From Roseobacter sinensis (lineage in GTDB: Bacteria; Pseudomonadota; Alphaproteobacteria; Rhodobacterales; Rhodobacteraceae): a stretch of 64,000 nt of DNA. Location of the stretch: positions 62,001-126,000 of the forward strand of contig NZ_JALIEB010000004.1 of the NCBI RefSeq assembly GCF_025755255.1. The letters run 5' to 3'. The notes under the pieces are model-generated. The model was not told the DNA's origin and ran no database searches. It saw only the letters and a list, made by a program, of their open reading frames with translations. The position numbers and the translations under genes are program-made. Of this stretch, positions 33,657 through 58,625 are shown one piece after another. The stretch's first letter is position 1. Each line of letters starts with the position of its first letter.

Positions 33657-33725
33657 GTTACGGGTAACTTCGGGCTTGACAGATTTCAGCGTTGGGACAA
33701 GCATTAGCGGAACGTTACGGGTAAC
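33657..33725. promoter_or_regulatory. Two LacI operators flanking the sugar-importer promoter
   Basis: GTTACGGGTAAC occurs at 33657-33668 and again at 33714-33725, 57 bp apart. Each is a near-palindrome (GTTAC/GTAAC). A TTGACA -35 candidate lies between them at 33676-33681. The spacing would allow DNA looping by a tetrameric or paired repressor. Confidence 0.82.
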
Positions 33726-33755
33726 TCAACTGTCCGGGCGTGGGAGGAGCTTAAG

Positions 33756-35282
33756 ATGCAGAACCTGCAAGCGGGTCTGTTCTTCGACGGTATCGACAAA
33801 CACTTCGGTGGGACCTACGCCCTGAAGGACGTGTCGCTTTCGGTCGGACGGGGCGAGATTGTGGCCCTGCTTGGTGAGAACGGGGCGGGGAAATCCACGC
33901 TGATCAAGGTGCTCGGGGGAATCCATACGCCCGACGCCGGGCGGGTGCTCATCGACGGCACACCCTACCAGCACCGGCCCGCCGGGTTCGGCGAACGGCA
34001 GAAGGTGGCCTTCATCCACCAGGATCTCGGCTTGATCGAGTGGATGACGGTTGCCGAGAACATCGCACTTGCCCTCGGATTTTCCAAGCGCAACGGGATG
34101 ATCCGTTGGGGCGAGGTGGAGCGCTTCGCGACCGAAGCCCTCAAGAGGGTCGATTGCGACTTTGAGCCAACGACCCGCGTGGAAAACCTCAGCCGTACCG
34201 AGAAGTCGCTTGTGGCCATCGCCCGCGCGCTGGCGGTCGACAGCGAGTTTCTGGTGCTTGATGAGCCGACGGCCTCCTTGCCCGCCGACGAGGTCGGGCG
34301 CCTTTTTGCAGCGATCCGCCCGCTGCGGGACCGTGGCGTGGGGATGATCTACGTGAGCCACCGGCTCGACGAGATCTTCGAGATCGCGGATCGTGTGGCC
34401 GTTTTGCGCGATGGCGAAATGGTCGGTGTCCGCAGCATCGAGCACACCACCCCGGAGGAGCTTGTGCAGAAGATCGTGGGCCGCAAGACGCGCGAGACGG
34501 TGCGGGCCGAAGAGGCGCCCGGGGCCGAGATCCTCGCGCTGAAAGACTTTCGTGTCGGCGGGGTCGGGCCGTTCGACTTTTCCTTGCGGCAGAATGAAAT
34601 CGTCGGGCTCGTCGGGCTGCGCGGCGCCGGGCACGAGGCGATCTCGCGCGCGCTCTTCGGGCTCAAGCCGTTCTCGGGCGAGGTTACGCTAGGTGGTGCC
34701 ACGCCTGATCTGTCGACGCCACAAACCGCGATGACCTCGGGCATCGGTCTGGTCGCAAAGGACCGGACGGAGGAATCCGTCGCGATGAGCCTCAGCATCC
34801 GCGAGAACACCTTTCTCAACCCCGCGGGCCTCGGGCGCCCGCTGCTGAACATGCTGGCGCCGCGGGCCGAGGCGGAACAGGCCGCCATCATCGGTGCGGA
34901 ACTGGGCCTGTCACCGAACGATCCCGAACTGGCGATCGAGGCGCTGTCGGGCGGAAACCAGCAAAAGGTTGTTCTGGGCAGGTGGCTGGCGACACGACGC
35001 ACGCTGCTGCTCTGCGAAGATCCAACCGCGGGCGTCGATGTCGGCGCCAAATCCGAGATCTATGCGCTGCTCAACCGTGCGCTTGCGGATGGTGTTGGCA
35101 TCCTCGTCGTCTCCACCGATTTCGAAGAAATCGCCACCATCTGTCACCGCGCCGTGGTGTTCAGCCAGGGCGCCATCGTGGACGAGCTGTCCGGCACCCG
35201 GCTCAGCACCGAAAACCTCATCCAGTCGGCCTCGGCTGGCAACATGACCAAGACAAAGGACACGCCCCATGCAATCGCTTGA
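33756..35282 (+). CDS. CUT2 sugar ABC importer ATPase, double-domain (system 1)
   Basis: 508 residues with two ATPase units, as in RbsA/MglA. Unit one has Walker A GENGAGKST (near 45) and Walker B FLVLDEP. In unit two the Walker A position reads GLRGAGHEA, which lacks the catalytic Lys-Ser/Thr, the usual degenerate second site of the family. The signature is LSGGNQQKVVLGRWL. It powers import by the adjacent permease. A GGGAGGAG site precedes ATG 33756. Its 3' end overlaps the permease gene by 14 nt. Confidence 0.92.
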   Translation: MQNLQAGLFFDGIDKHFGGTYALKDVSLSVGRGEIVALLGENGAGKSTLIKVLGGIHTPDAGRVLIDGTPYQHRPAGFGERQKVAFIHQDLGLIEWMTVAENIALALGFSKRNGMIRWGEVERFATEALKRVDCDFEPTTRVENLSRTEKSLVAIARALAVDSEFLVLDEPTASLPADEVGRLFAAIRPLRDRGVGMIYVSHRLDEIFEIADRVAVLRDGEMVGVRSIEHTTPEELVQKIVGRKTRETVRAEEAPGAEILALKDFRVGGVGPFDFSLRQNEIVGLVGLRGAGHEAISRALFGLKPFSGEVTLGGATPDLSTPQTAMTSGIGLVAKDRTEESVAMSLSIRENTFLNPAGLGRPLLNMLAPRAEAEQAAIIGAELGLSPNDPELAIEALSGGNQQKVVLGRWLATRRTLLLCEDPTAGVDVGAKSEIYALLNRALADGVGILVVSTDFEEIATICHRAVVFSQGAIVDELSGTRLSTENLIQSASAGNMTKTKDTPHAIA

Positions 35283-36291
35283 CTCGAATGCGCTTGAGCC
35301 GACGAAGGCCGAGTTGCGGGGGCTGCCGTTTGGCAAGCGGCTGATGCGGTTCCTGCCGGTCTACGGGCTGGTGATCCTGACGATCTTCCTGATCGGTCTG
35401 TTCTCGATCCTGCTGCCCAACACCTTCCCCACGATGTTGAACCTGCGTGCCATCGTAAGCGACAAGGCCATCATCGCGTTGTTGAGCCTTGGCGCGATGA
35501 TCCCTATGGCTGCCGGCCGGATCGACCTGACGGTGGGGTACGGGATCGTGCTGTGGCACATCCTCGCGATCAGCCTCCAGACCCTGCTGGGCCTGCCCTG
35601 GCCGATTGCCGTGGCCATGGTGCTGCTGCTGGGGGCGCTGACCGGGTTCCTGAACGGTCTGCTCGTCGAGGTCGCGAAGATCGACAGCTTCATCGCAACG
35701 CTGGGCACGGGGACGGTGCTCTATGCCCTCGCGCTGTGGCACACCGGTGGCCGGCAGATGGTGGGCGTGCTGCCGGATGGGTTCTACGCACTGAACAACA
35801 CCTTCGTCTTCGGCCTGCCGATCACCGGGTACTACTTGCTTGGGATCACCGTCGTGATGTGGCTGGTGCTCGAATACACACCCCTCGGCCGGTACCTCTA
35901 TGCGATCGGGGCCAACCAGCGCGCCGCACAGCTGAACGGTATTCCGACGCGGAAATACGTGATCGGCGCCTTCGTGGCCTCAGGCACGATGACCGCGCTC
36001 GCAGGTGTTCTGCTGGCCGCGAAGCTGCGGATCGGGCAGGCGAGCGTCGGGCTGGAATTCCTGCTGCCTGCGCTTGTGGGTGCCTTTCTCGGCTCCACGA
36101 CGATCAAGCCGGGCCGCGTGAACGTCTGGGGTACCATCGTGGGCGTCGCCATCCTTGCGGTGGGCATTTCCGGCATCCAGCAATTCGGCGGCTCCTTCTG
36201 GGTCGAGCCGCTCTTCAACGGGGTGACCCTGCTGATCGCCATCGGGATCGCAGGCTACGCACAGCGCCGAAAGGGAGCCGAGAAGCGCTGA
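35269..36291 (+). CDS. CUT2 sugar ABC importer permease (system 1)
   Basis: 340 residues with about nine to ten membrane helices (BPD_transp_2 fold). Motifs are SLGAMIPMAAGRIDLTVGYGI and GANQRAAQLNGIPTRKYVIGAFVASG, where the latter is the EAA-like coupling helix contacting the ATPase. It forms the membrane pore for the sugar delivered by the binding protein at 36323. ATG 35269 overlaps the ATPase gene. Confidence 0.9.
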   Translation: MQSLDSNALEPTKAELRGLPFGKRLMRFLPVYGLVILTIFLIGLFSILLPNTFPTMLNLRAIVSDKAIIALLSLGAMIPMAAGRIDLTVGYGIVLWHILAISLQTLLGLPWPIAVAMVLLLGALTGFLNGLLVEVAKIDSFIATLGTGTVLYALALWHTGGRQMVGVLPDGFYALNNTFVFGLPITGYYLLGITVVMWLVLEYTPLGRYLYAIGANQRAAQLNGIPTRKYVIGAFVASGTMTALAGVLLAAKLRIGQASVGLEFLLPALVGAFLGSTTIKPGRVNVWGTIVGVAILAVGISGIQQFGGSFWVEPLFNGVTLLIAIGIAGYAQRRKGAEKR

Positions 36292-39417: not shown

Positions 39418-40557
39418 ATGAAACGATTGATGAGCACCACGCTCGTGGCGGGCCTGGCCTTGACGGGCGCAGCCCTTGCGCAAGGCCCGTTGCCGCTGAA
39501 GGAGCTGCCCGACATCGCCGAGCGCGACTATTGGGTGCCTGATGAGGTGAACGCGGACGGCAAGCTTGACGCGCTGCAAGAGGTTGTCGGCTCCGCTGCC
39601 CAGCCCTTCTCCGGCACGCAGGACGCGCCGATTCAGATCGCGCTGATCTACCCGTCGGCGGATACCTCGGACTTCTGGGCGCGCAACTATCTGGCGCTGA
39701 CCAAGCGGCTCGACGAGCTCGGCATCACATACGAGACCACCGAGTTTGCCAGCCGCCAGATCGAGCACTCCTTGCAGTCGACCTATGCAAACCAGGTCGA
39801 GCAGGATGCGGATCTCTATGACTACGTCATCTTCGGCCCCTCCGAATTGGCCATTCAGGCCGACAACATCGACAAGCTGTCGGCCAATGACGGGTTCCGC
39901 ACTTACGTCTGGGCGTTCCATACGCCGTTGAAGGACCTCACCAACCAGCCTGACGCGTGGTTCGATTTCTCCTCGGCTGCCGGTGCGTTGACCATGTGCG
40001 ACTACATGATCGGCCGTCTGGGCGAAGGCATCACGATGGCGATGAACCGCGGGATCCCCGGCATCACCGACAACCAGCGTTCGGGTGATTTCAAAGCCTG
40101 CGTGGAAGAGAAAGCCGGCTGGACCACGGTCTATGAGCACTATGGCGAGTACCAGCGCGAAGGCGGCTTCGAGGGCACATCGCTGATCATGCAGGCCTAT
40201 CCCGAGGCCACGATCATCCACAACGCCAATACGGCCATGGCCATGGGCTCGGTCGAGGCGCAGATCGCGATGGGCAAGGAGAAGGACATCTTCTCGACCG
40301 GCTGGGGCGGGACCGGGCTGGAGCTCGAAGCCATCCGCCGCGGTGAGCTCGACGCCACACCGATGCGGATGGGTGACGATGTGGGTGCTGCCACCGCCGA
40401 GGCGATCAAGGCCGATATGGAAGGGCGTGCCGACGAGCTTCCCTTCGTGTTCCTTGGCCGGATCACGGTGGCGCATGATCAGATGAGCCTGGAAGAAATC
40501 GACGCGCTGGAGCAGGAGGCCTTCCGCTTCTCCGGCGTGGGCGCGCTGGAGCGCTGA
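39418..40557 (+). CDS. Periplasmic sugar-binding protein (CUT2 system 2)
   Basis: 379 residues. The signal peptide (about 1-21, ending ALAQ) is followed by an extra N-terminal arm of about 40 residues. The type 1 binding fold then begins at IQIALIYPSADTSDFWARNYLALTKRL. Later phrases include IHNANTAMAMGSVEAQIAMG and STGWGGTGLELEAI. The extra arm recalls LuxP/TorT-type proteins more than ribose-binding protein, so a ligand other than a simple hexose is possible. GGGAGG precedes ATG 39418. It ends the six-gene importer run. Confidence 0.85.
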   Translation: MKRLMSTTLVAGLALTGAALAQGPLPLKELPDIAERDYWVPDEVNADGKLDALQEVVGSAAQPFSGTQDAPIQIALIYPSADTSDFWARNYLALTKRLDELGITYETTEFASRQIEHSLQSTYANQVEQDADLYDYVIFGPSELAIQADNIDKLSANDGFRTYVWAFHTPLKDLTNQPDAWFDFSSAAGALTMCDYMIGRLGEGITMAMNRGIPGITDNQRSGDFKACVEEKAGWTTVYEHYGEYQREGGFEGTSLIMQAYPEATIIHNANTAMAMGSVEAQIAMGKEKDIFSTGWGGTGLELEAIRRGELDATPMRMGDDVGAATAEAIKADMEGRADELPFVFLGRITVAHDQMSLEEIDALEQEAFRFSGVGALER

Positions 40558-40611
40558 GTCACAGGTCGGGGCGTCGTATCCGCAGATGCCCCGACCTCGC
40601 CTTGCCACCTC

Positions 40612-41247
40612 TCACTCTGGCCGGGGTGTCCCGGCCGAGATTGACTTCAGATCCTGGTAGACGGTGGCGCGGCTGACGCCCACGGCCCGCGCGACTGCCT
40701 GTGCCGCGCGCTTGCGGTCGAAAATGCCCCGCCCCTGCAGTTCGGAGATCAGCGCCTTGCGGTCGCTATGGCGCAGATCTTTCAACAGGACGCCCTGCCG
40801 GGCGCACCATTCGGCGATGAACTGGTGCAAATCCTCCAGCCAGTCGTTGGCCAGTGGATGCGTGGCGGCCGTTGCAGGGATCGAGGTCAGCGCAGCCAGG
40901 AGCCCCTGTGCCCCTTCGAATTGAGAGACATCCATGTTCACGCACAGCAGCGCGTCGGGCGTGCCGCCTGCGTCTCGCAGAACCACGCTGATCGACTTGA
41001 TCGCGCGGCCGTCCGGCAGAACCTTGCGGTAGGGCCCGTGCACATTTTCCGTCCAATCCGCGATGCCGAGCTCTTCGAGGTAGGATGGCTCGCCCACCTG
41101 CCGGCCCGACTGTGCGCCATCGATCGAGGCGATGGTTCCGGAGGGCAGATCATGCAGGATGACCTCGCAGAAGGGCGAGAAGAGCCGCGCGATCCCGCGG
41201 GCCGCGTCCACGACGCTCGCGTGCGTCGAACCGGACCGGCGCATCAT
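40612..41247 (-). CDS. YheO/DauR-like regulator (PAS-type domain plus HTH)
   Basis: 211 residues. The N-terminal YheO-like PAS domain has LFSPFCEVILHDL and a middle phrase IKSISVVLRDAGGTPDALLCVNMD. The C-terminal helix-turn-helix contains GIFDRKRAAQAVARAVGVSRATVYQDLKSI. DauR is the best known member and controls D-arginine catabolism (family knowledge). ATG 41247 overlaps the upstream dehydratase stop by 4 nt (ATGA), so regulator and enzyme are co-translated. It most likely controls the dehydratase operon in response to its amino acid substrate. Confidence 0.82.
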   Translation of the reverse strand: MMRRSGSTHASVVDAARGIARLFSPFCEVILHDLPSGTIASIDGAQSGRQVGEPSYLEELGIADWTENVHGPYRKVLPDGRAIKSISVVLRDAGGTPDALLCVNMDVSQFEGAQGLLAALTSIPATAATHPLANDWLEDLHQFIAEWCARQGVLLKDLRHSDRKALISELQGRGIFDRKRAAQAVARAVGVSRATVYQDLKSISAGTPRPE

Positions 41248-42215
41248 GTGCCGGCGGCGATCACGGGCAGGATCGTGTCTCGGTCGAAATTCGCGCCGCA
41301 GAGGACGACCGCGCTGGCCAGCCCCGCATAGCGAGCCGGATCCAAACGCCATGGGGCAAGCGCCAGGCCGGCCGAGCCTTCCACCAGCATCTTTTCCTCC
41401 CACGCCAGGGCCCGCACACCGTCGGCGATCTGGTCTTCGGAACAGGTGACCCTCTCGTCGATGACTTCGGTGGCGAGGGGCAGCGTGAGTGTGCCCTCGT
41501 CGATCCCGCCGGCGCAGCCATCGGCCAGTGTCTCCTGGTGGCGCACCTCCACCACCCGACCTGCTCCGATGCTGGCATCAAGCGCGGCCGAGTTTGCCGT
41601 GCTGACGCCGACCACCCGGGTCTCTGGCGAAAAGGCTTTCAACACCGATCCGATCCCCGAGATCAGGCCGCCACCGCCCATCGAGATGAACACGACATCG
41701 AGCTTCGGCACCTGCTGGAGAAGCTCGAGCCCGATGGTGCCCTGACCGGCAATGACCGTTTCGTCATTGTAGGGCGAGACATAGATCTTTCCGTCGGTCT
41801 CGGCGAGGGCTCTCGCGTGCTGCTCGGCCAGCCCTGAATCGTCGGAGTGAAGGATCGTCCTTACTCCCAGCGCCTCGATCTTGTCGCGTTTTTCCCGTGC
41901 AACGGTGTGTGGCAGAACAACGCTCAACGCGTGGCCCGTTATCTGCGCTGCGGTGCTCAGCGCCAGCCCGTGGTTGCCGGATGACGCGGTGATGATCGGG
42001 GTGTCCGGGCCGAGCGCCGTCAGCTTGGACAGTGCGCCGCGAAACTTGAACGAACCGGTGCGCTGCAGGTTCTCGGCCTTGAAGACCAGCCCCGTGCCGT
42101 CGGTAAAGTGGCGCCGCGACGGAATGCAGGGCGTCTCGGCCAGGTAGGGGGCGATCCGGCGTTGCGCTGCCACGGACAGCGCGGCTTGCCGCAAGACGGA
42201 AGGCGATGGACTCAT
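41244..42215 (-). CDS. Threonine/serine dehydratase-family PLP enzyme
   Basis: 323 residues, fold type II. The PLP lysine is in TGSFKFRGAL (near residue 50). The phosphate loop is SMGGGGLISGIG and an early substrate loop ASSGNHGLALS is present. It lacks the C-terminal ACT domain of biosynthetic IlvA, so it looks catabolic. Candidates are threonine or serine dehydratase, EutB-like or 3-hydroxyaspartate dehydratase. I see no gene of the hydroxyaspartate cycle or ectoine pathway next to it, so the substrate is left open. ATG 42215 begins the domain. The divergent partner is the AMP-ligase gene at 42407. Confidence 0.83.
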   Translation of the reverse strand: MSPSPSVLRQAALSVAAQRRIAPYLAETPCIPSRRHFTDGTGLVFKAENLQRTGSFKFRGALSKLTALGPDTPIITASSGNHGLALSTAAQITGHALSVVLPHTVAREKRDKIEALGVRTILHSDDSGLAEQHARALAETDGKIYVSPYNDETVIAGQGTIGLELLQQVPKLDVVFISMGGGGLISGIGSVLKAFSPETRVVGVSTANSAALDASIGAGRVVEVRHQETLADGCAGGIDEGTLTLPLATEVIDERVTCSEDQIADGVRALAWEEKMLVEGSAGLALAPWRLDPARYAGLASAVVLCGANFDRDTILPVIAAGT

Positions 42216-49147: not shown

Positions 49148-51031
49148 GTGGAACCCATAAGCCTTACGCTGGAGATGTCGGTGGTGCTCGGCCTGCTGGC
49201 ATTTACGGTCTTCCTGTTTGTCTCCGAAATCGTCCGCATCGACTTGGCTGCGATCATGGTCATGGTGCTGCTCGGATTGCTCAGCCAGCTGCCTGCGCTG
49301 AGCTCTCTGGCCGATGTCAGCCGCCTTTTCGACGGTCTGGCCTCGAACGCGGTGGTGTCGATCATCGCAGTCATGATCATCGGTGCGGGGCTCGACAAGA
49401 CCGGGCTGATGAGCAAGGTCGCCTCGGTCATTCTCAAGCATGGCGGCAAGACGGAAACGCGGATTATCCCGATCATCTCTGGAACCGTGGGGGTGATCTC
49501 ATCTTTCATGCAGAACGTGGGTGCGGCCGCGCTCTTCCTGCCGGTGGTCAGCCGGATTTCGGTCCGGACGGAATTGCCCCTCAGCCGCCTGCTGATGCCC
49601 ATGGGCTTCTGCGCCATTCTCGGCGGGACGATGACGATGGTGGGCTCCTCGCCGCTGATCCTGCTCAACGATTTGCTGCTGAGCGCGAACGAGGCGCTGC
49701 CCGAGGACCAGCAGATGGCGCCCTTCGGGCTGTTCTCGGTCACACCCGTCGGGATTTCGCTGGTGATCACGGGGATCCTCTATTTCGTCGTCTTCGGGCG
49801 CTGGGTGCTGCCCGCAGGCCGCAAGGAGGGCGAGGCGACCAGCGCAACCTCCCTGAAGGACTACCTCAAGAACATCTACGGGCTGAAAACGGACATCTTT
49901 GAAATCTCAGTACCCGAAGGCCACCCGTGCGTCGGCGAAACCTTCGACGACGTGATGCAGCGCTATCACGTCTATATCATTGGCAGCGCGTACCGGGGAA
50001 AGCGCTGGTTCGCGCCGGTCATCCAGACCCAGATCACCGCGCCCTGCCGGCTGGCGATCCTCGGACGCAAGAAGGTCATCGACCAGATGGTGGCCGAGGG
50101 CGGTTATGTTCTGCACCCGCAACTCGACGTCTTTGCCGAGGATTATGCCCCCACCAAATCCGGAGTGGCGGAGATGGTGATCCCGCCCGGCTCGTCCGTG
50201 ATCGGCAAATGCGCGCATGATCTGGTGTTCCGCAAGACCTATGGTGCCAGCCTTCTGGCCATCCACCGTGACGAAGAGACCATGAGCTATGTGGAGACCG
50301 ACGACCATGCGCCCACCGCCGTAGGCGAGGTGCCTTTTCACGCAGGCGACACGTTGGTCATTCACAGCACCTGGGAGGCGCTGACCCGGCTGACCCGCGA
50401 CCGCGATTTCGTGGTGGTCACAACCAACTTCCCGCAGGAAGAGCTGCGTCCCAAGAAGGTGGGCTGGGCGCTCTTGTTCTTCATCATTTCGATCTCGCTG
50501 ATCCTGTTTACGGATCTGCGGCTCTCGCTGTGCCTGCTCACCGGGGCGGTGGGCATGATCCTGACCGGTGTCCTCGATATCGACGACGCCTATGCGGCCG
50601 TCAGTTGGAGCACGGTGTTTCTGCTGGCCAGTCTGATCCCGCTGGGTCAGGCGGTGCAGACCACGGGCACCGCCGAGTGGATCGCACAGCAGATCCTGAC
50701 CCTGCTCAACGGCTGGCCGCTCTGGTCCTTGCAGGCCGGGATTGCAGTGCTGGCCACCGCCTTCACCCTGATCATGTCGAATGTCGGGGCGACGGTGCTG
50801 CTGGTGCCGCTTGCGGTCTCCATTGCCGTTGCGGCGGGTGGCGATCCTGCGATCTTTGCGTTGACCGTTGCGATCTCCACGTCCAACTCCTTCCTGATCC
50901 CCACGCATCAAGTGAATGCGCTGATCATGGGGCCGGCCGGTTACAAGGTGACGGATTTCATGAAGAGCGGCGGGATCATGACGATCCTCTTCCTTGTCGT
51001 CTCGCTGCTGATGATGAACGTGGTGTTCTGA
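49148..51031 (+). CDS. SLC13-type anion carrier with two TrkA-C (RCK_C) domains
   Basis: 627 residues. The N-terminal membrane block (about 1-215) includes MQNVGAAALFLPVVSRIS. The two cytoplasmic TrkA-C regulatory domains lie at about 235-410, and a second membrane block (about 440-627) has LIMSNVGATVLLVPLAVSIAVAAGGDP and STSNSFLIPTHQVNAL. This is the architecture of YfbS/SAC1-like sulfate or organic anion carriers. GTG 49148 is used; GGGAGAA lies upstream. The substrate is unknown. A perfect hairpin follows at 51045. Confidence 0.88.
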   Translation: MEPISLTLEMSVVLGLLAFTVFLFVSEIVRIDLAAIMVMVLLGLLSQLPALSSLADVSRLFDGLASNAVVSIIAVMIIGAGLDKTGLMSKVASVILKHGGKTETRIIPIISGTVGVISSFMQNVGAAALFLPVVSRISVRTELPLSRLLMPMGFCAILGGTMTMVGSSPLILLNDLLLSANEALPEDQQMAPFGLFSVTPVGISLVITGILYFVVFGRWVLPAGRKEGEATSATSLKDYLKNIYGLKTDIFEISVPEGHPCVGETFDDVMQRYHVYIIGSAYRGKRWFAPVIQTQITAPCRLAILGRKKVIDQMVAEGGYVLHPQLDVFAEDYAPTKSGVAEMVIPPGSSVIGKCAHDLVFRKTYGASLLAIHRDEETMSYVETDDHAPTAVGEVPFHAGDTLVIHSTWEALTRLTRDRDFVVVTTNFPQEELRPKKVGWALLFFIISISLILFTDLRLSLCLLTGAVGMILTGVLDIDDAYAAVSWSTVFLLASLIPLGQAVQTTGTAEWIAQQILTLLNGWPLWSLQAGIAVLATAFTLIMSNVGATVLLVPLAVSIAVAAGGDPAIFALTVAISTSNSFLIPTHQVNALIMGPAGYKVTDFMKSGGIMTILFLVVSLLMMNVVF

Positions 51032-51078: not shown

Positions 51079-51237
51079 CTACCGTACGCGACGCAGGCGC
51101 AGTGCGACGGTGGCCGCGAGGGTCATGAGCACCAGACCGGCGACGAGGCCAGCCGGCGAGGCGGTAGCGACCTCCGGCTCGTGGTGTGCGAGGGCCGGTG
51201 TGGCGACAAGCGCCAGAAGGAAGGAGAGGTGCTTCAT
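51079..51237 (-). CDS. 52-residue exported membrane peptide with HH motif (guanidine operon)
   Basis: Signal-like leader MKHLSFLLALVATPALA, then HHEPEVATASPAG, one hydrophobic helix (LVAGLVLMTLAATVAL) and an Arg-rich end. If cleaved after ALA, the mature protein would begin with two His, a possible metal site. ATG 51237 overlaps the stop of the His-rich gene by 4 nt (ATGA) and GGAGAGG lies upstream, so translation is well supported in spite of its size. It is the last gene of the guanidine operon. The family is unknown. Confidence 0.65.
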   Translation of the reverse strand: MKHLSFLLALVATPALAHHEPEVATASPAGLVAGLVLMTLAATVALRLRRVR

Positions 51238-51665
51238 GTGGTGTCCTTTCCGGAAGCAGGGTGGGTTTGGAGAAAACTGCGCAGGTCCGTGACCTGCTTT
51301 GCCTCGAGCGAGACATAGACGAAGCCCATGTTGGTGCGCTCGGTCACCATCTCGCCGGGGTAGGGCAGATAGCTCAGCTCGCGCGAGCCGAAGGACGGCG
51401 AGGCCGTGCCCACCTGCCATTCGGTGGTCAGGGTCACATCGACCAGCTTCATCGACGGCCCGCCCCCCGGCGCCTCGATCTCCAGCGGCACACCGGCGAT
51501 GCGCAGATACGACATCTTGTCCTTCGCCGCGATGAACCCGTCGATGAACTGCTCGGTGAGCACCTGTAGGTCTGCCGCACCATCGGCCTCGTGCATATGG
51601 CTGTGCAGGTGGTCAGGATGGTCATGGTTGTGGCCGATATGTCCGGGCGCGTGATCATGTGGCAT
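51234..51665 (-). CDS. His-rich protein of guanidine operon, candidate nickel handler
   Basis: 143 residues, no signal peptide. The N-terminal 26 residues hold ten His (MPHDHAPGHIGHNHDHPDHL onward), the type of tail seen in UreE, HypB and SlyD nickel-handling proteins. The remainder is a compact domain (LRIAGVPLEIEAPGGGPSMKLVDVTLTTEW, then SYLPYPGEMVTERTNMGFVYVSL) that I do not recognise. It starts at ATG 51665 with GAAAGAGG upstream and overlaps the hydrolase gene by 11 nt. Guanidine hydrolases need nickel and helper proteins (family knowledge), so a delivery role is inferred. Confidence 0.7.
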   Translation of the reverse strand: MPHDHAPGHIGHNHDHPDHLHSHMHEADGAADLQVLTEQFIDGFIAAKDKMSYLRIAGVPLEIEAPGGGPSMKLVDVTLTTEWQVGTASPSFGSRELSYLPYPGEMVTERTNMGFVYVSLEAKQVTDLRSFLQTHPASGKDTT

Positions 51666-52899
51666 TGGACCACCTCTTTCCTTCAAATTCGCCATGGGGG
51701 ATCTCGACCGGCTTATCGATGTGCCGCTTGTGCGCGCCCATCTTGCCTGCGGCGACCAGCGAGCCCAGCACATCGACGATCACCCGCGTGCCCATGAGGG
51801 CCGTGATCTCCGACTGGTCGTAGGGCGGGGCAACCTCAACCAGCTCCATGCCGCAGATGCCCTCGGCGGCCACTTTCGAGGCGAGCGCCAGCGCCTCGCG
51901 CGGCAGGAAGCCGCCGGGTTCGGGCCAACCGGTGCCCGGTACAAAGCCGCAGTCGATGCTGTCGATATCGAAGGACATATAGACCATGTCGACCCCGTCC
52001 CAGGCCATCTCCAGCGCCATCTCGGCGGTCTTGTCGACGCCCATCTTCTCCATGTCGCCCATGGTGATGATGTTGGTCTCGCGCTCGCGGGCGACCTTCA
52101 CCGCCTCGCGCGGGACTTGCCAGCCGCCGATGCCCACCTGCACGAGGTTCTTCGCGGGCACATTGGGCAGGTTGGTGGAGTGGAACCATGGCGTCGTATG
52201 CATCCGCTCGTCCAGATCCTTCTCCTGAATGTCCGCATGGCGGTCGAAATGTACGATCCCGATCTTCTTCGAGGTGCATTCAGCGATGCCGCGCACGCAG
52301 GGAAAACCGATGGAATGGTCGCCCCCGATCATGATCGGCAAAGACCCCGACGACGCGACGTGGCTGACCGCACGGCTGATCTGATCAAAGGTCTTCTCGA
52401 TATTGGCTGGGATGGTGAAGACATCGCCTGCATCGCAGAGCGTCATCTGCTCGCGCAGGTCGATGCCCATTTCGTAGTTGTAGGGCGTGTAGAGCGCCGA
52501 GATCTTGCGCACGCCCTGCGGCCCGAACCGCGTGCCCGCGCGGTAGGTCGTGCCGCCGTCAAAGGGGATGCCCAGCACCGTGGCGTCATAGTCCTTCACC
52601 TCCGTCACGTCCTCGGCGTAAGGCGCCTTGAGAAAGGTGTTGATCCCGGCGTAATGCGGCAACTCGCCCCGCGCGAAGGTAGGGATCGACTTGTCCTCGA
52701 TGCTGTCTGCGCCGGTCAGCCCCATGCGCAGCGCCCACTTCTTCTCCTGCTCCCAGCCGCTTTCGGGGATATCGCCCTCGGCCTGCATCGCCTTCCAGCC
52801 GCGCAGCTTGGTCAGGTCCGGGTGGTGGCGGTGCGCTTCGCGGCGCCTCTGGTCGGCCGGGTGGTGCGAGCGCGAGCGCTCACGCGGGGTGCAGAACAT
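51655..52899 (-). CDS. gdmH: Guanidine hydrolase-like ureohydrolase (GdmH type)
   Basis: 414 residues, about 100 longer at the N-terminus than agmatinase. Metal ligands of the ureohydrolase fold are present: H195 in GGDHS; D219, H221 and D223 in HFDRHAD; D311 and D313 in SFDIDS. The loop GTGWPEPGG has Trp where agmatinases have Thr. The N-terminal block KWALRMGLTGADSIEDK and IPTFARGELPHYAGINTF is shared with guanidine hydrolases as I recall them. A guanidine-I riboswitch controls the operon. The reaction would be guanidine to urea and ammonia, needing nickel. ATG 52899 has a strong AAGGAGG. It overlaps the ATPase gene by 20 nt. Agmatinase is the alternative. Confidence 0.85.
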   Translation of the reverse strand: MFCTPRERSRSHHPADQRRREAHRHHPDLTKLRGWKAMQAEGDIPESGWEQEKKWALRMGLTGADSIEDKSIPTFARGELPHYAGINTFLKAPYAEDVTEVKDYDATVLGIPFDGGTTYRAGTRFGPQGVRKISALYTPYNYEMGIDLREQMTLCDAGDVFTIPANIEKTFDQISRAVSHVASSGSLPIMIGGDHSIGFPCVRGIAECTSKKIGIVHFDRHADIQEKDLDERMHTTPWFHSTNLPNVPAKNLVQVGIGGWQVPREAVKVARERETNIITMGDMEKMGVDKTAEMALEMAWDGVDMVYMSFDIDSIDCGFVPGTGWPEPGGFLPREALALASKVAAEGICGMELVEVAPPYDQSEITALMGTRVIVDVLGSLVAAGKMGAHKRHIDKPVEIPHGEFEGKRWSNAT

Positions 52900-53647
52900 G
52901 GGTGTCCTCCTTGATGGTTTGGAACGGGATGCCGCCATCGCGGGCGTCGAAGTCGTAGGTGATCGTGGCCCCATAGAGGTTGGGGTCATGCGGGTCCCAG
53001 CGCGGCTTGTCGAAGACCAGAACCCGGTCGCCGAGCTTGAAGGCCTCTTCAAGGTCATGGGTGACCATGAAGACCGTCATGCCCGTCTCCGCCCGCAGGT
53101 CCTGCAGGAAGTCGTGCATCGACAGTCGCGTTCCGGGATCGAGTGCGCCGAAGGGTTCGTCGAGCAGCAGTACGCGGGGCTTTGCGGTCAGCGCCTGCCC
53201 GATGGCCAGCCTCTGCTGCATGCCCCCGGAGAGCGTGGCGGGATACTGATCCGCCACATGGTCGAGCCCGATGCGGGTGAGGGTCTCATCGGCGCGGGTC
53301 TGCGCCTCTGTGCGGGCCGCGCCGAAGAACCGGCCCCAGGGGCTGCGGAAGCTTTCGCCTGCAACGATGTTTTCGCGCACGGTCATATGCGGAAAGACGG
53401 AATAGCGCTGAAACACAATTCCCCGGTCGAGCCCCGGCTCGCGCGCCGGTTCTGCGCCTGCGATGCGAATCTCGCCCCGCGTCGGCCGTTCCTGCGCCAG
53501 CAGCAGCCGCAGGAAGGTAGACTTGCCACAGCCCGAGGCCCCGACAATGGAGACAAACTCGCCTTCGTCCGCCTCCATGTTGACCCGTTCGATGATCGAG
53601 CGCCGACCATAGGTCTGAAAGATGTTTTGAACGGTGACGAAGCTCAC
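52880..53647 (-). CDS. NitT/TauT-type ABC importer ATPase (guanidine operon)
   Basis: 255 residues. Walker A is GASGCGKST (near 41), signature LSGGMQQRLAIGQAL, Walker B LLLDEP and H-loop VTHDLEEAF. The LSGGMQQR and Q-loop pattern fits the nitrate/sulfonate/taurine family. The start is GTG 53647, overlapping the permease stop by 4 nt; the longer upstream reading runs into the permease gene in another frame. It energises uptake by the adjacent permease. Given the riboswitch, guanidine or a guanidinium-bearing compound is the likely substrate. Confidence 0.88.
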   Translation of the reverse strand: MSFVTVQNIFQTYGRRSIIERVNMEADEGEFVSIVGASGCGKSTFLRLLLAQERPTRGEIRIAGAEPAREPGLDRGIVFQRYSVFPHMTVRENIVAGESFRSPWGRFFGAARTEAQTRADETLTRIGLDHVADQYPATLSGGMQQRLAIGQALTAKPRVLLLDEPFGALDPGTRLSMHDFLQDLRAETGMTVFMVTHDLEEAFKLGDRVLVFDKPRWDPHDPNLYGATITYDFDARDGGIPFQTIKEDTHVLHPA

Positions 53648-54456
53648 AAGCCCTCCTCCGCCCAGGGGAAGAACCGTCGTGAGAGCCAGCGCAGGGCCCA
53701 GTCGATCAGGAAGGCGAGCAGGGTGATCCAGATGACGTACGTCAGGATCACATCCATCGCGAGATAGCGGCGGACAAGGAAGATGCGGTAGCCGAGGCCA
53801 AGGTCCGAGGCGATGGCCTCGGCGGCGATCAGGAAGAGCCACGCGGGGCCCAGCGAAAGGCGCACGGCAAGGATCAGGCGCGGCATCAGCTGCGGAAGGG
53901 CCACGCGCAGGGCGATGACCCAGCTGGAGGCGCCGAGCGTCTGCGCCTTAACGATCATCTCCTGAGGCACCTCGATCACACGCTGGCTGAGGTCGCGGAT
54001 CAGAAACGGCAGGGTGCCCACCACGATCAGCACGACCTTCGACAGTTCGCCGAGGCCGAAGACGATGAAGAGGATCGGCAGCAGGGCAAGCGGCGGGATC
54101 ATCGAGAGGACGGCCACGAATTGTGCCAGAAAGCTGCGCATCAGGGGCAAGAGGCCGATGGCCAGCCCGAAGACCAGCCCGATGAAGGCCGAGATGCCGA
54201 TGCCGAGCGCCAGCCGTTGCAGACTGGCCCAGGTGTCATGCCAGAAGAGGATGCGCCCGCTGCGCCGGTCTGCTTCCGTGATCAGCCGCACCGCCGTGTC
54301 CCAGACCGTGCTGGGCGCGGGCAGCAGCTTGTCGGACGGGTTCGCGGCCAGCCGGATCTCCGAGCCGATGGCATAGGCCACGACCACTGCCGCGAAGGGC
54401 AGGAGCATGAGGAACACCGCAAGCGGCCGGCTCGGTTTGATATTGATCAGGCGCAT
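53644..54456 (-). CDS. NitT/TauT-type ABC importer permease (guanidine operon)
   Basis: 270 residues with about six helices. The inner coupling loop is VIEVPQEMIVKAQTLGASSWVIALRVALPQLMPRLI, the EAA motif of SsuC/TauC-type permeases. It is 38 nt past the binding-protein gene with a hairpin between. It overlaps the ATPase gene by 4 nt. Confidence 0.88.
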   Translation of the reverse strand: MRLINIKPSRPLAVFLMLLPFAAVVVAYAIGSEIRLAANPSDKLLPAPSTVWDTAVRLITEADRRSGRILFWHDTWASLQRLALGIGISAFIGLVFGLAIGLLPLMRSFLAQFVAVLSMIPPLALLPILFIVFGLGELSKVVLIVVGTLPFLIRDLSQRVIEVPQEMIVKAQTLGASSWVIALRVALPQLMPRLILAVRLSLGPAWLFLIAAEAIASDLGLGYRIFLVRRYLAMDVILTYVIWITLLAFLIDWALRWLSRRFFPWAEEGL

Positions 54457-54467
54457 CGGAGCAAGAG

Positions 54468-54488
54468 GCCCCGGATCAAGTCCGGGGC
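54468..54488 (-). terminator. Hairpin between binding protein and permease of guanidine importer
   Basis: A perfect 8-bp stem GCCCCGGA/TCCGGGGC (54468-54475 with 54481-54488) with a 5-base loop lies 6 nt past the binding-protein stop. It is probably an mRNA stabiliser or leaky attenuator that raises binding-protein yield. Confidence 0.55.
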
Positions 54489-54494
54489 GCGTTC

Positions 54495-55541
54495 TTACAG
54501 GCTGCCGTCGGCGGCCATTTGCATGTATGTGGTGTCAAAGCGGAACATCACGTTGTTCTCATCTCCGGTCACACTGCCATCGGGGTAGGCGACGCCGACG
54601 AAATCAGCCGAAGGCGCGCCTTCGCCAAGGATGCCCTTGTCAAAGAGGAACTCGGCCACGCTGACCATGGTCTTCGGCAAATCGGCGCTGGAGGCGAAAG
54701 CCACAGCATCCGCCGGGTCGTAGAACATCTCGGTCGAGGCGAGCTGCGCCTTATAGCCTGCAAGGTCGGTGCCGGATGCCTCGGCCATCGCCGTCAGCAC
54801 CTCTTCGTCGCCTGCGGCCATCAGCCCCATGACCTCATACCAGGCCCCCGCCATCGCCTTGCCGAAATCCGGGTTCGCCTCCAGCGTTTCGGTGTTCACG
54901 ACCATCAGGTCGATGATCTCGCCAGGGATGTCGGAGCTGTCAAAAAGCTTGGTGGCGGTTGGATCTTCGAGGATCGAGGACACCAGCGGGTTCCACGTCA
55001 CCACCGCCTGCACGTCGTCGGTGGAGAAGGCCGCGATCATATCTGCATCGGAGGTGTTGATCACCCCGCCCAGATCGGCCTCGGAGAGCCCGACACTGTC
55101 GAGCCCCCGCGCCAGCAGGTAATGCGAGACGGATAGTTCCACCAGGTTCACCGGCTTGTCAGCAAGGCTGGTCAGATCGCCGTCGCCCTTCAGGATCACC
55201 GCGTCATTGCCGTCGGAGTAGTCACCCACGATCAGCGCCGTGGTGTCCACACCGCCGCCTGCGGGGATCGAGAGCGTGTCCATATTGGTGGCCGAAACCC
55301 CATCGAACTGGCCCGCCGTATATTGGTTGATCGACTCGATATAGTCGTTGATCTGAACGATCTCGACGTCGATCCCGTATTTGTCGGCCCATTTATCCAT
55401 GATGCCGCTCTCTTCCAGATAGCCCCAGGGCATCCAGCCCACGTAGATCGACCAGGCCACCTTGAACTCGGTCTTTTCCTGCGCGAAGGCGCCCGTGCTC
55501 AGGCACAGGGCGACTGCGGTCAATGCTGTCAGTTTCTTCAT
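54495..55541 (-). CDS. NitT/TauT-type substrate-binding protein, predicted guanidine binder
   Basis: 348 residues. The signal peptide is MKKLTALTAVALCLSTGAFA. The mature protein begins EKTEFKVAWSIYVGWMPWGYLEES, with two aromatic residues typical of clefts for small cations. Later phrases include VSATNMDTLSIPAGGGVDTTALIVGD and MIAAFSTDDVQAVVTWNP. It is the first gene after the riboswitch, with a 71-nt leader from aptamer end to ATG. By context it should bind guanidine or a close derivative in the periplasm; the fold alone would also fit taurine- or urea-type ligands. Confidence 0.85.
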   Translation of the reverse strand: MKKLTALTAVALCLSTGAFAQEKTEFKVAWSIYVGWMPWGYLEESGIMDKWADKYGIDVEIVQINDYIESINQYTAGQFDGVSATNMDTLSIPAGGGVDTTALIVGDYSDGNDAVILKGDGDLTSLADKPVNLVELSVSHYLLARGLDSVGLSEADLGGVINTSDADMIAAFSTDDVQAVVTWNPLVSSILEDPTATKLFDSSDIPGEIIDLMVVNTETLEANPDFGKAMAGAWYEVMGLMAAGDEEVLTAMAEASGTDLAGYKAQLASTEMFYDPADAVAFASSADLPKTMVSVAEFLFDKGILGEGAPSADFVGVAYPDGSVTGDENNVMFRFDTTYMQMAADGSL

Positions 55542-55891
55542 TTTCGGTCCCCATTGGTTCTTGTCGAATGGAATGACCGCGTGGAGGGCATGAGCGGAGC
55601 GCGGGTCAAACCAGCGCAGTAGCCTCCCGGGATTTTGCCCCGCCGTGTACTGCCCGGTCTGTCGCCGGACAGCGATATCTCTCGGACCTGGCCTTCACGG
55701 CGAAGCGGAACCCTAGATATCCTGCACTCTCGATCAAAGTCCGCTTTGGCGGGTCGCGCCATGGAAAACTGGGCTCCCAGAGTTGTTCCCGGCGCTGTCT
55801 GCCTAAAAAATGAGCAGATCGTCCTGGGTCACGCGACGGTCTGCCACTGACCCGAGAATCCGCGGACGTCTTCCGCCGGTCGTGTCGACCG
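55542..55891. other. Leader and promoter region of guanidine operon
   Basis: 350 bp without genes. It holds the guanidine-I aptamer (55613-55728), a possible expression-platform hairpin (GACCGCG at 55575-55581 with CGCGGGTC at 55600-55607), and the operon promoter beyond 55735. The distal part (55736-55891) shows no further feature apart from the end of the DUF1993 gene region. Confidence 0.6.
55613..55728 (-). promoter_or_regulatory. Guanidine-I (ykkC) riboswitch
   Basis: Read on the minus strand, the conserved ykkC blocks appear in order: CTAGGGTTCCGC (55705-55716), then CAGGTCCGAGAGA (around 55677-55689), then ACACGGCGGGGCAAAA and TCCCGGGAGG (to 55622). A closing P1 stem pairs AGTGCA (55723-55728) with TGCGCT (55613-55618), including one G-U. 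The class binds guanidine and turns on transport and detoxification genes. It lies directly upstream of a NitT/TauT importer and a guanidine-hydrolase-like gene. Confidence 0.92.
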
Positions 55892-56380
55892 TCAGTATTC
55901 GTGCAGCCCGTCGAAATCCGCCTTGCCCAGATCGAGCCCGGCGACACGCAGAGCGGCATAGGCCATCGACATGTGAAATATCATATTCGGCAGCGCGAAG
56001 CGGAGAACATAATCATCCGGCTCCTGCGTAAGCGACGCATCGCCGGCAGTATGGGACACGACATAGCAGAGCTGATCCGGCGTGATCCGACCGACCAGCG
56101 CGGCGATGTCGCGCTGATAGGCAAGAAGGCTTGGGACGCTCAATACGTCAGGGATCTCGGGCACATGCACACCGGCAGGCGGGCCTGCCGCGCGCGCAGC
56201 GAATTGGATCGCGATGGCGAGATGGGTGCCGGTGTCGAAGCTGTCGGGCGCAAGCTGCGTGCTCAACATGTCTTCAGGATTTGCGGCGCCGCCGATCCGC
56301 TGCAGCAGATGCACACAGCGGTCCAGATAGTGCTGAAGGGTGCGCAGCGCGGGCGCGGCGAAATCGGCTGGCATCTGCAA
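55892..56380 (-). CDS. DUF1993 family protein
   Basis: 162 residues, soluble and mainly helical, related to DinB-like four-helix bundles. Phrases LQHYLDRCVHLLQRIGG, TGTHLAIAIQFAAR and NMIFHMSMAYAALRVAGLDLGKADFDGL are characteristic of DUF1993. The start is ATG 56380 or ATG 56374. It lies upstream of the riboswitch on the same strand but is probably a separate unit, because the aptamer and its promoter intervene. Function is unknown. Confidence 0.8.
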   Translation of the reverse strand: MQMPADFAAPALRTLQHYLDRCVHLLQRIGGAANPEDMLSTQLAPDSFDTGTHLAIAIQFAARAAGPPAGVHVPEIPDVLSVPSLLAYQRDIAALVGRITPDQLCYVVSHTAGDASLTQEPDDYVLRFALPNMIFHMSMAYAALRVAGLDLGKADFDGLHEY

Positions 56381-56499
56381 CCTGTCGTGTGGCGGCCAAT
56401 CGGAGGCTCCAATCTCTCACGATTGCTGCTCTCCGACAACGGCATAGAACGGCCACGGCGTCAGGCAGCCGATGCTGCCTGACAGGCGCGCCATTCCGC

Positions 56500-58455
56500 T
56501 CAGAGTGAGATACGGAACCGCGCAAAGCCATCCGGGCCGTCGCCCGCGGGCTCGATCTCTGCATTCACCTGGTCGAGATAGGCTTTGGCGGCGGGTCCGG
56601 TATCGAAGAGCACCGTTGTGCCCTCCATCGGCGCGAAGGACCAGTTGCTGTCCGCGCGCGGGCTGATCGTGCCTTGCTCGACGATGTAGCGCACGATCAC
56701 GTCCCGGTTGGTGTCCGGTCCTTCGAAGATCACGGTTTCCGGCGTCGCTCCGGGGAAGTTGCCGCCGCCGCCGGCACGGTAGTTGTTGGTGGCCACGATG
56801 AACTCCGCGTCCAAGTCCAGCGGCGCGCCGTTATAGGTCAGGTTCACGATGCGATTGGCCGAGGCGTCCAGAAGCTCACCCTTCGGGTCGTACTTCGAGG
56901 GCTGCGAGAGGTCGATCTGATACGCGACCCCGTCGATCACGTCGAAGTTGTAGCTCGGGAACGAGGGGTTGATCAGCATCGCATCCAGCGCGCCTGGGCT
57001 GACCCGGTTGAAGATGCCGGCCGACCGCTCCAGCCAGTCCTTGACCTGTTGCCCGGTGATGCGCACAGCGCGCGCCGTGTTGGGATAAAGATAGAGGTCC
57101 GCCACGTTCTTGATCGCCACATCGCCTGCGGGCACGTCGGTAAAATACTCTGGCCCGCCACGGCCCCCAGCCTTGAAGGGGGCCGCCGCCGAGAGGATGG
57201 GCAGCCCTTCATGCTCGGTGCCCTTCAGCATCTGCTCAATGTACCAGAGCTGCGCGATGGAGACGATCTGTACCGAGGGGTCGTCGGCGACCAGCGCGAA
57301 ATAGCTGTGCAGCGGCGCATCGGTCTTGCCCACCGCGCGGCGGACGTAAGTGAGCGTCTCGTCATGGTCGGTCTGTACCGAGGCGAGGACTGTCTCGTCG
57401 CTCTCGACCAGCGCGGTCACGCTGCGGTCTTCGTTGCGCTTCGAGATCGGCCGCGCTTCGGAGGTGGCCGAGACGACACGCCATTCGTTGCCATCCTTCT
57501 CGATCAGCAGGTCGATGAGCCCCATGTGGCTGCCCCAGAAGCCGCCCATCGTGGCCGGCGTGCCCATCACGGTCCCGGCGCCTACATCGACGCCCGCAAA
57601 GCCGTCGTACTCGGGCGAGGGGAAGACGAGGTGGCTGTGCCCGGTGAGGATCGCGTCCACGCCCTCCAGACCCGCCAGCGGCACAGCCGCGTTTTCCATG
57701 CCTTCGGTCGCATTTGGCGAGCCGATGCCGGAATGCGACAGCACGACGATGATATCGGCGCCCGCTTCCTTCATCTGGGGCAGGTAGGCTTGCGCGCTCT
57801 CCAGGATGTCGCGCGCCTGCACCTTGCCGTCCAAGTGCCGACGGTCCCAGGTCATGATCTGCGGCGGCACGAAGCCGATCAACCCGACCTTGATCGGGTG
57901 CTCTGTGCCCGCGCCATCCGTGACCGTGTGGTCGAGGATCACGTAAGGCGGGATCAGCGTCTTGTCCTGGGTCGGGTCGCTGCCCAGTTCCAGCGCCACA
58001 TTCGCGCAGACCACCGGGAAGTTGGCGCCCGCGAGAGACTTCATCAGGAAGTCGAGCCCGTAGTTGAATTCGTGATTGCCGAGCGTGGATGCATCGAAGC
58101 CAAGCGTGTTCATCGCCTGGATGATCGGGTGCATGTCGCCCTCTTTCATCCCGCGCTCGTACGCGATGTAGTCGCCCATCGGGTTGCCCTGGAGGAAGTC
58201 GCCATTGTCGATCAGCAGCGCGTTTGAGGCTTCGTTGCGAATGTCCTGGATCAGCGCGGCCGTGCGCGCCAGACCGACGGTATCGACGGGTTTGTCGCTG
58301 TAGTAATCGTAGGGAAACACGTGCACATGCAGGTCGGTGGTCTCCATGATGCGCAAATGTGCCTGACCGGCAGCGGCATTGGCAGAGAACGGGTGCAGCG
58401 CGATGAAGCCTGCGGTGCCGGCAAGAAAGCCGCGGCGGCTGAGGGATATCGACAT
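56500..58455 (-). CDS. cpdB: Bifunctional 2',3'-cyclic-nucleotide 2'-phosphodiesterase/3'-nucleotidase
   Basis: 651 residues. A Tat-type leader (SRRGFLAGTAGF) precedes a metallophosphatase domain with METTDLHVHVFPYDYYSD, DNGDFLQGNPMGDY, LGNHEFNYGLDFL, LSHSG and GHSHLVFP. The 5'-nucleotidase C-terminal domain follows, with ILSAAAPFKAGGRGGPEYFTDV and FIVATNNYRAGGGGNFPG. NPMGDYIAYERG and the length match CpdB. It acts in the periplasm on 2',3'-cyclic nucleotides and 3'-AMP for phosphate and nucleoside salvage. ATG 58455 begins the leader. It is monocistronic. Confidence 0.92.
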   Translation of the reverse strand: MSISLSRRGFLAGTAGFIALHPFSANAAAGQAHLRIMETTDLHVHVFPYDYYSDKPVDTVGLARTAALIQDIRNEASNALLIDNGDFLQGNPMGDYIAYERGMKEGDMHPIIQAMNTLGFDASTLGNHEFNYGLDFLMKSLAGANFPVVCANVALELGSDPTQDKTLIPPYVILDHTVTDGAGTEHPIKVGLIGFVPPQIMTWDRRHLDGKVQARDILESAQAYLPQMKEAGADIIVVLSHSGIGSPNATEGMENAAVPLAGLEGVDAILTGHSHLVFPSPEYDGFAGVDVGAGTVMGTPATMGGFWGSHMGLIDLLIEKDGNEWRVVSATSEARPISKRNEDRSVTALVESDETVLASVQTDHDETLTYVRRAVGKTDAPLHSYFALVADDPSVQIVSIAQLWYIEQMLKGTEHEGLPILSAAAPFKAGGRGGPEYFTDVPAGDVAIKNVADLYLYPNTARAVRITGQQVKDWLERSAGIFNRVSPGALDAMLINPSFPSYNFDVIDGVAYQIDLSQPSKYDPKGELLDASANRIVNLTYNGAPLDLDAEFIVATNNYRAGGGGNFPGATPETVIFEGPDTNRDVIVRYIVEQGTISPRADSNWSFAPMEGTTVLFDTGPAAKAYLDQVNAEIEPAGDGPDGFARFRISL

Positions 58456-58625
58456 GATCGGTCCTTTGGGTCTGTCGTCGGGCGGAATCGAGATCGAGTG
58501 TAACCGGCCTGTATCGTGGCGCCAGCCTCCCGTTTTGCGGGTCACGCGCAGCGTCGGCGCCTCTTCGCCGGTCGCGACCCCGGCAGGAACGCGCCTCTGA
58601 GGTCGAGCCGCTTGGCCCCCCGGGG

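Follow-up and report, generated by a model that had tools for sequence, protein, structure and literature searches.

The guanidine operon of Roseobacter sinensis described here lies in a 64,000-nucleotide (nt) stretch of contig NZ_JALIEB010000004.1 (positions 62,001–126,000; the window, whose positions serve as coordinates) and spans 55727 to 51079, entirely on the − strand. A Guanidine-I riboswitch aptamer is followed by genes for an ATP-binding cassette (ABC) substrate-binding protein, a permease, an ATPase, a ureohydrolase, a 143-amino-acid (aa) protein and a 52-aa protein, in that order. The core for sensing, import and hydrolysis is of a known kind, and we are highly confident that guanidine is what it detects, takes up and splits. 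What is new is the 143-aa protein (51234–51665), a His-rich partner of the enzyme. On the strength of gene linkage, co-occurrence and a fold model, it is probably a nickel accessory protein of the guanidinase, which would bind the metal, contact the enzyme and deliver the metal to it. The partner family is widespread and, as far as the literature searched goes, undescribed. The accessible portions of that literature, to which all statements cited below by PMC number also refer, hold no mention of a His-rich guanidinase partner, and subscription papers, Funck 2022 or supplements may mention one.

The guanidinase and its His-rich partner

The enzyme gene (51655–52899) encodes a 414-residue ureohydrolase (PF00491, E-value 2.2e-75), as the first-pass annotation had proposed, and its further proposal of a guanidine hydrolase (GdmH) is supported by sequence comparison with solved relatives. 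The nearest solved relatives in phmmer are the guanidinases of Synechocystis (7esr/7oi1, E 1.2e-162) and Nitrospira (9fek, E 4.2e-160), and the next solved relative is far weaker (E 2.1e-49). Guanidine specificity is reported to be set by two residues, T97 and W305 in the Synechocystis enzyme (PMC11410670), which correspond to T118 and W325 in the window enzyme. All six ligands of the two-metal centre (H195, D219, H221, D223, D311 and D313) are present, as are H234 and E355, the other residues named in the same paper (PMC11410670); in all, 10 of 10 tested residues are kept. The start codon position is unsure, since aligned relatives are similar only from about residue 25. We reject an agmatinase or other ureohydrolase in view of the nearest solved relatives, which are guanidinases, and of the key residues. 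The genome also encodes urease subunit alpha (over its cut-off), with UreE near it. Because the operon holds an importer and no exporter, and the genome holds these two urease genes, our best inference is that guanidine is used as a nitrogen source and not merely exported, in agreement with the first-pass annotation. In another genome, genes for urease alpha (33718–35415) and a UreG-like protein lie a few kb from the guanidinase gene (40275–41429; L122, G096:C17:30000-46000).

The partner gene is tightly linked to the enzyme gene. Genome contigs of 84,980 species were scanned with the enzyme alignment, and the best 80 of at least 549 confirmed stretches, alphaproteobacterial by their titles, were kept. 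A partner homologue lies directly downstream of the enzyme gene in 79 of these 80 loci, and the remaining locus (L087) breaks off within the enzyme gene. As in the window operon, enzyme and partner genes overlap in 49 of the 79 loci (start codons were assigned by rule, a few of them wrongly).

The two genes also occur together at the level of genomes. Among 289 genomes of the class, the enzyme is found at E ≤ 1e-60 in ten; seven of these matches are strong (E below 1e-200), and all seven genomes carry the partner. The remaining three (G064, G079 and G007) lack it, and their enzymes belong to a different subfamily or are cut short. We did not count them as guanidinases, given the T of G079 at the position of the key W and the truncated sequences of the other two; if all three were included, the partner would accompany 7 of 10 enzyme genomes. 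The partner occurs in eight of the 289 genomes, the eighth (G125) having a C-terminal fragment. Among 398 genomes of the phylum, the enzyme is found in seven, and the partner is found in the same seven and as a 33-residue fragment in G502. The genome of the window (G000) and G107 occur in both samples. Fisher tests give p values of 2.6e-13 for the class and 2.7e-14 for the phylum, with kinship ignored and the three weaker class genomes scored as enzyme-less. The C-terminal partner fragments in G125 (L123:4119-4361) and G502 (L114:1495-1593), genomes without a strong enzyme match, look like remnants of lost operons.

A tree of 42 of the 125 aligned enzyme rows, midpoint-rooted and carrying a long-branch warning, places the 35 partner-bearing enzymes on one side of a single branch (100/99). 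The seven partner-less rows on the other side are Synechocystis, Nitrospira, L018 and L101–L104. The last four are actinobacterial plasmid loci, and the key W is kept in three of them. The tree is as would be expected from one gain of the partner without loss, which would suffice to account for it, and the long branches call for caution. L018 (1501-2673, from G079) and L017 (G064) represent a second ureohydrolase subfamily, about 56% identical, in which no partner gene was found. This subfamily has a His-rich insert beside a conserved active-site stretch, and in G079 the guanidinase W is replaced by T.

In the 143-aa protein, a His-rich N-terminal tail (10 of the first 26 residues are His) precedes a conserved core of about 110 residues that starts near residue 26. 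Across the family (84 members), median tail length is 49 residues and the median His count of the tail is 16 (range 1–28); the median Cys count of the core is 0. Conservation is much higher in the core than in the tail. In seven close pairs the nonsynonymous divergence (dN) of the core is 0.06–0.19, which is low against the synonymous divergence (dS) of 0.75–2.6 in the six computable pairs; thus, the core is under purifying selection. A spurious reading frame is ruled out by the 84 members, the selection on the core and a confident predicted fold. AlphaFold2 gives confidence means of 91–98 for ten-residue blocks of the core and 55–67 for those of the tail, which is thus modelled with low confidence.

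Neither sequence nor structure libraries place the partner in a known family. Searches of 47 members against Pfam and NCBIfam gave best E-values of 0.014 and 0.01, respectively, to unrelated models. A nickel/cobalt efflux model matches 4 of the 47 weakly (best E 0.042), probably through His-rich stretches, and no HypA or HypB model in either library matches any of them at E ≤ 0.1; a UreE model is likewise absent from the matches at this threshold. Alignment of the core to HypA, HypB and UreE by hhalign covers 9, 11 and 22 columns, respectively; the HypB E-value of 3.5e-05 rests on 11 columns and does not indicate kinship, so there is no support for the core as a divergent HypA, HypB or UreE. 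Foldseek against the PDB found no match at E ≤ 0.001 with the full protein or the core alone, and a viral structure library searched with the core gave nothing clear. Tudor-like and COMMD-like rows appear at Z 2–3 in the structure comparison. These searches, made with two predicted models, do not show the partner fold to be new.

Nickel helpers and competing explanations

GdmH and metformin hydrolase have been linked to HypA/HypB-type chaperones, and hupE follows those of metformin hydrolase (PMC11271267, PMC11399263). Where Sll1077-like genes are under a guanidine riboswitch, hypA, hypB and ABC genes are often found with them (PMC8390497). No such chaperone gene is found in the window operon, and its genome has no HypA match and no HypB over the cut-off. 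Within the flanking sequence of the 80 loci (up to 9 kb), the HypA and HypB of G148 as queries found no homologue. Among 12 genomes with both enzyme and partner, neither HypA nor HypB is over the cut-off in eight, the genome of the window included; HypB is over it in three (G148, G600 and G365) and HypA in four (the same three and G124, where it is partial). Absence of both is thus common but not universal among these genomes. In HypB, the His-rich tail binds several Ni2+, and tails of this kind have been connected with nickel storage (PMC7055735). The window's own genome encodes a UreE (L121:3577-4104, G000 contig 35) with a His-rich C-terminal tail that resembles the N-terminus of the partner in kind. 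PMC11410670 reports no nickel chaperone in comammox genomes and calls nickel acquisition unclear for the Nitrospira guanidinase.

Several observations weigh against a nickel accessory role. The tail has as few as one His (L008), and four in SAR116 members; since the count varies from 28 to 1, the tail cannot be essential everywhere. The predicted structure has no clear relative that hints at metal work, the best Z values in a VIA second look being 2.7 and 3.3. Produced in Ni-rich medium with no chaperones, the Nitrospira guanidinase showed activity (PMC11410670), and MetAB co-expression made no difference to metformin hydrolase in E. coli (PMC11271267); therefore, a helper may not be strictly needed. 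On the need for chaperones PMC11271267 and PMC11399263 differ, with no MetAB effect in one and HypA/HypB-dependent activity in the other. Finally, the enzymes with a partner form one clade, so the linkage counts are not independent.

The partner might instead be a structural or regulatory subunit of the guanidinase, with the His-rich tail as a minor buffer or incidental. The greater conservation of the core and the low His content of some members fit such a subunit, and metformin hydrolase depends on an additional ureohydrolase subunit that is not catalytic (PMC11271267). However, no such partner is part of the Synechocystis and Nitrospira guanidinases, which form homohexamers (PMC11410670), and most members have a long tail rich in His, so that we consider a subunit unlikely. 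Less likely again is a protein that merely stores or sequesters nickel or another metal while insertion proceeds unaided or by urease accessory proteins. The UreE of this genome, with its own His-rich tail, and the link of such tails to nickel storage (PMC7055735) speak for storage, but storage alone leaves the tight link to one enzyme and the conserved core unexplained. It is very improbable that the true substrate of the enzyme is another guanidino compound: the library models offer only an arginase-family placement, with an agmatinase-like match below its cut-off, whereas the guanidine-specific T and W, the solved guanidinases as nearest relatives and the guanidine aptamer in front of the operon all indicate guanidine.

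We therefore favour a nickel accessory protein, and in our best reading the partner stands in for HypA/HypB and was gained once at the base of the clade. A stronger proposal, to which we give somewhat less than an even chance, is that the 143-aa family forms a new class of nickel insertase. Such an insertase would be a single small protein that lacks a GTPase domain and combines an unfamiliar core fold with a nickel store of its own. In a single event at the base of the alphaproteobacterial guanidinases it would have replaced HypA/HypB, and its tie to that one enzyme would have persisted since.

Aptamer, leader and remaining genes

The aptamer (55622–55727) matches RF00442 over its full length, scoring 82.8 bits where the gathering cut-off is 63 (E 3e-13 in the window search), and thus passes the covariance-model test that the first-pass annotation had named. 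It is the single match across the whole 4.9 Mb genome, and a chance match is ruled out by this and by the score. The leader between aptamer and first gene (55542–55621) is strongly conserved in sequence among the nine close relatives shown. The minimum-free-energy fold of the leader region is no better than that of shuffled sequences (z −0.62), and a 10-row consensus fold of the leader gives no clear switch. The stretch from aptamer to first gene contains no terminator-like site, and such sites occur in the region at the chance level (3 found, 2.4 expected).

Across the 80 loci the aptamer was sought with a model (R1) built from 29 aptamers, the training set including 28 of these loci. It matches in 72 of 80 loci, one match being cut by a contig end, and 44 of the 52 loci outside the training set provide independent finds. 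R1 found no aptamer in the other eight (L052, L079, L083, L084, L088, L089, L090 and L092), and Rfam found none in the seven of them that were submitted. Two of these eight have a DUF1989 gene after the partner gene (L079:10752-11384 and L083:10828-11454; PF09347 was tested for L079 only), and the Pfam family of DUF1989 includes carboxyguanidine deiminases (PMC11410670). Taken as a whole, the operon forms a stable unit across loci.

All three importer genes that the first-pass annotation placed behind the aptamer are found. The substrate-binding protein (54495–55541), probably for guanidine, matches TIGR03427 with 522.9 bits (cut-off 333.9). The permease (53644–54456), of the NitT/TauT type, matches PF00528; the TauC, SsuC and NtrB models stay below their cut-offs, and TauC is the best NCBIfam model among them. 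The ATPase (52880–53647), with an apparent GTG start, matches PF00005. The description of six overlapping genes in one direction holds for the strand, and the overlaps are confined to four of the five junctions, with the binding protein and permease genes 38 nt apart. Neither of the small genes matches a Pfam or NCBIfam model above its cut-off.

The 52-aa protein (51079–51237) has a signal-like start and one transmembrane stretch. Proteins of this type combine these features with a short loop, often with His, and a basic end, and at least 33 of the 79 loci have a gene for one immediately after the partner gene (the strict rule misses some). The sequence drifts fast (dN 0.51–0.68 in six pairs). 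HupE/UreJ (PF04955) is not among the matches of the window protein; a counterpart from Roseibium matches the beginning of HupE/UreJ below the cut-off (16.5 bits, cut-off 23). Directly after the partner gene, a HupE/UreJ-type gene is found in S. fredii NGR234 (pNGR234b; PF04955, E 6.4e-45) and in G440 (phmmer to the S. fredii gene, E 1.3e-31). Because such a gene takes its place in these two loci, the 52-aa protein may help metal entry, which is a guess.

The genes on either side look unrelated to the operon. A CitMHS-type transporter with a TrkA_C domain is encoded at 49148–51031, and a DUF1993 protein and a 5′-nucleotidase-like protein at 55892–58545.

Proposed route and comparison with known systems

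In the route that we propose, guanidine would bind the aptamer and turn the operon on, as the RNA family suggests, and the ABC importer would take guanidine up. GdmH, to judge from its residues and relatives, would use a nickel-containing centre to hydrolyse guanidine into urea and ammonia, and the cell's urease, whose genes are present, would then split the urea. The flexible His-rich N-terminus of the 143-aa protein would collect Ni2+ and the conserved core would hand it to the enzyme, and the 52-aa membrane protein may assist metal entry. The 143-aa protein would thereby do for its clade what the HypA/HypB-type GhaA/GhaB does for the Synechocystis enzyme.

The operon of Synechocystis PCC 6803 (Sll1077, GdmH) shares with that of the window the Guanidine-I riboswitch, an ABC importer and a close enzyme with the same key residues (PMC12186494, PMC8390497); however, it has GhaA/GhaB where the window operon has the 143-aa His-rich and 52-aa genes. 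The Nitrospira inopinata locus also has a Guanidine-I riboswitch and a closely related guanidinase, whereas its transporter is an APC permease in place of the ABC importer and no nickel chaperone is reported for it (PMC11410670). The metformin hydrolase loci (MetAB or HypA/HypB, MetCaCb, HupE) likewise place a Ni-dependent ureohydrolase beside nickel helpers and hupE (PMC11399263, PMC11271267), although enzyme and substrate are different and the helpers are HypA/HypB homologues. HypB (for example, of G148) and UreE of the window's genome resemble the partner in architecture, a conserved domain bearing a His-rich tail that varies, and in being encoded beside a nickel enzyme system, but the partner core has no convincing sequence relation to either.

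A single-gene partner tied to the guanidinase across diverse alphaproteobacteria makes the question of nickel supply testable. If its role is confirmed, the partner would be a protein that delivers nickel without belonging to the HypA/HypB or UreE families. It would also provide a compact helper for making active guanidine-degrading enzymes and a marker for guanidine users.

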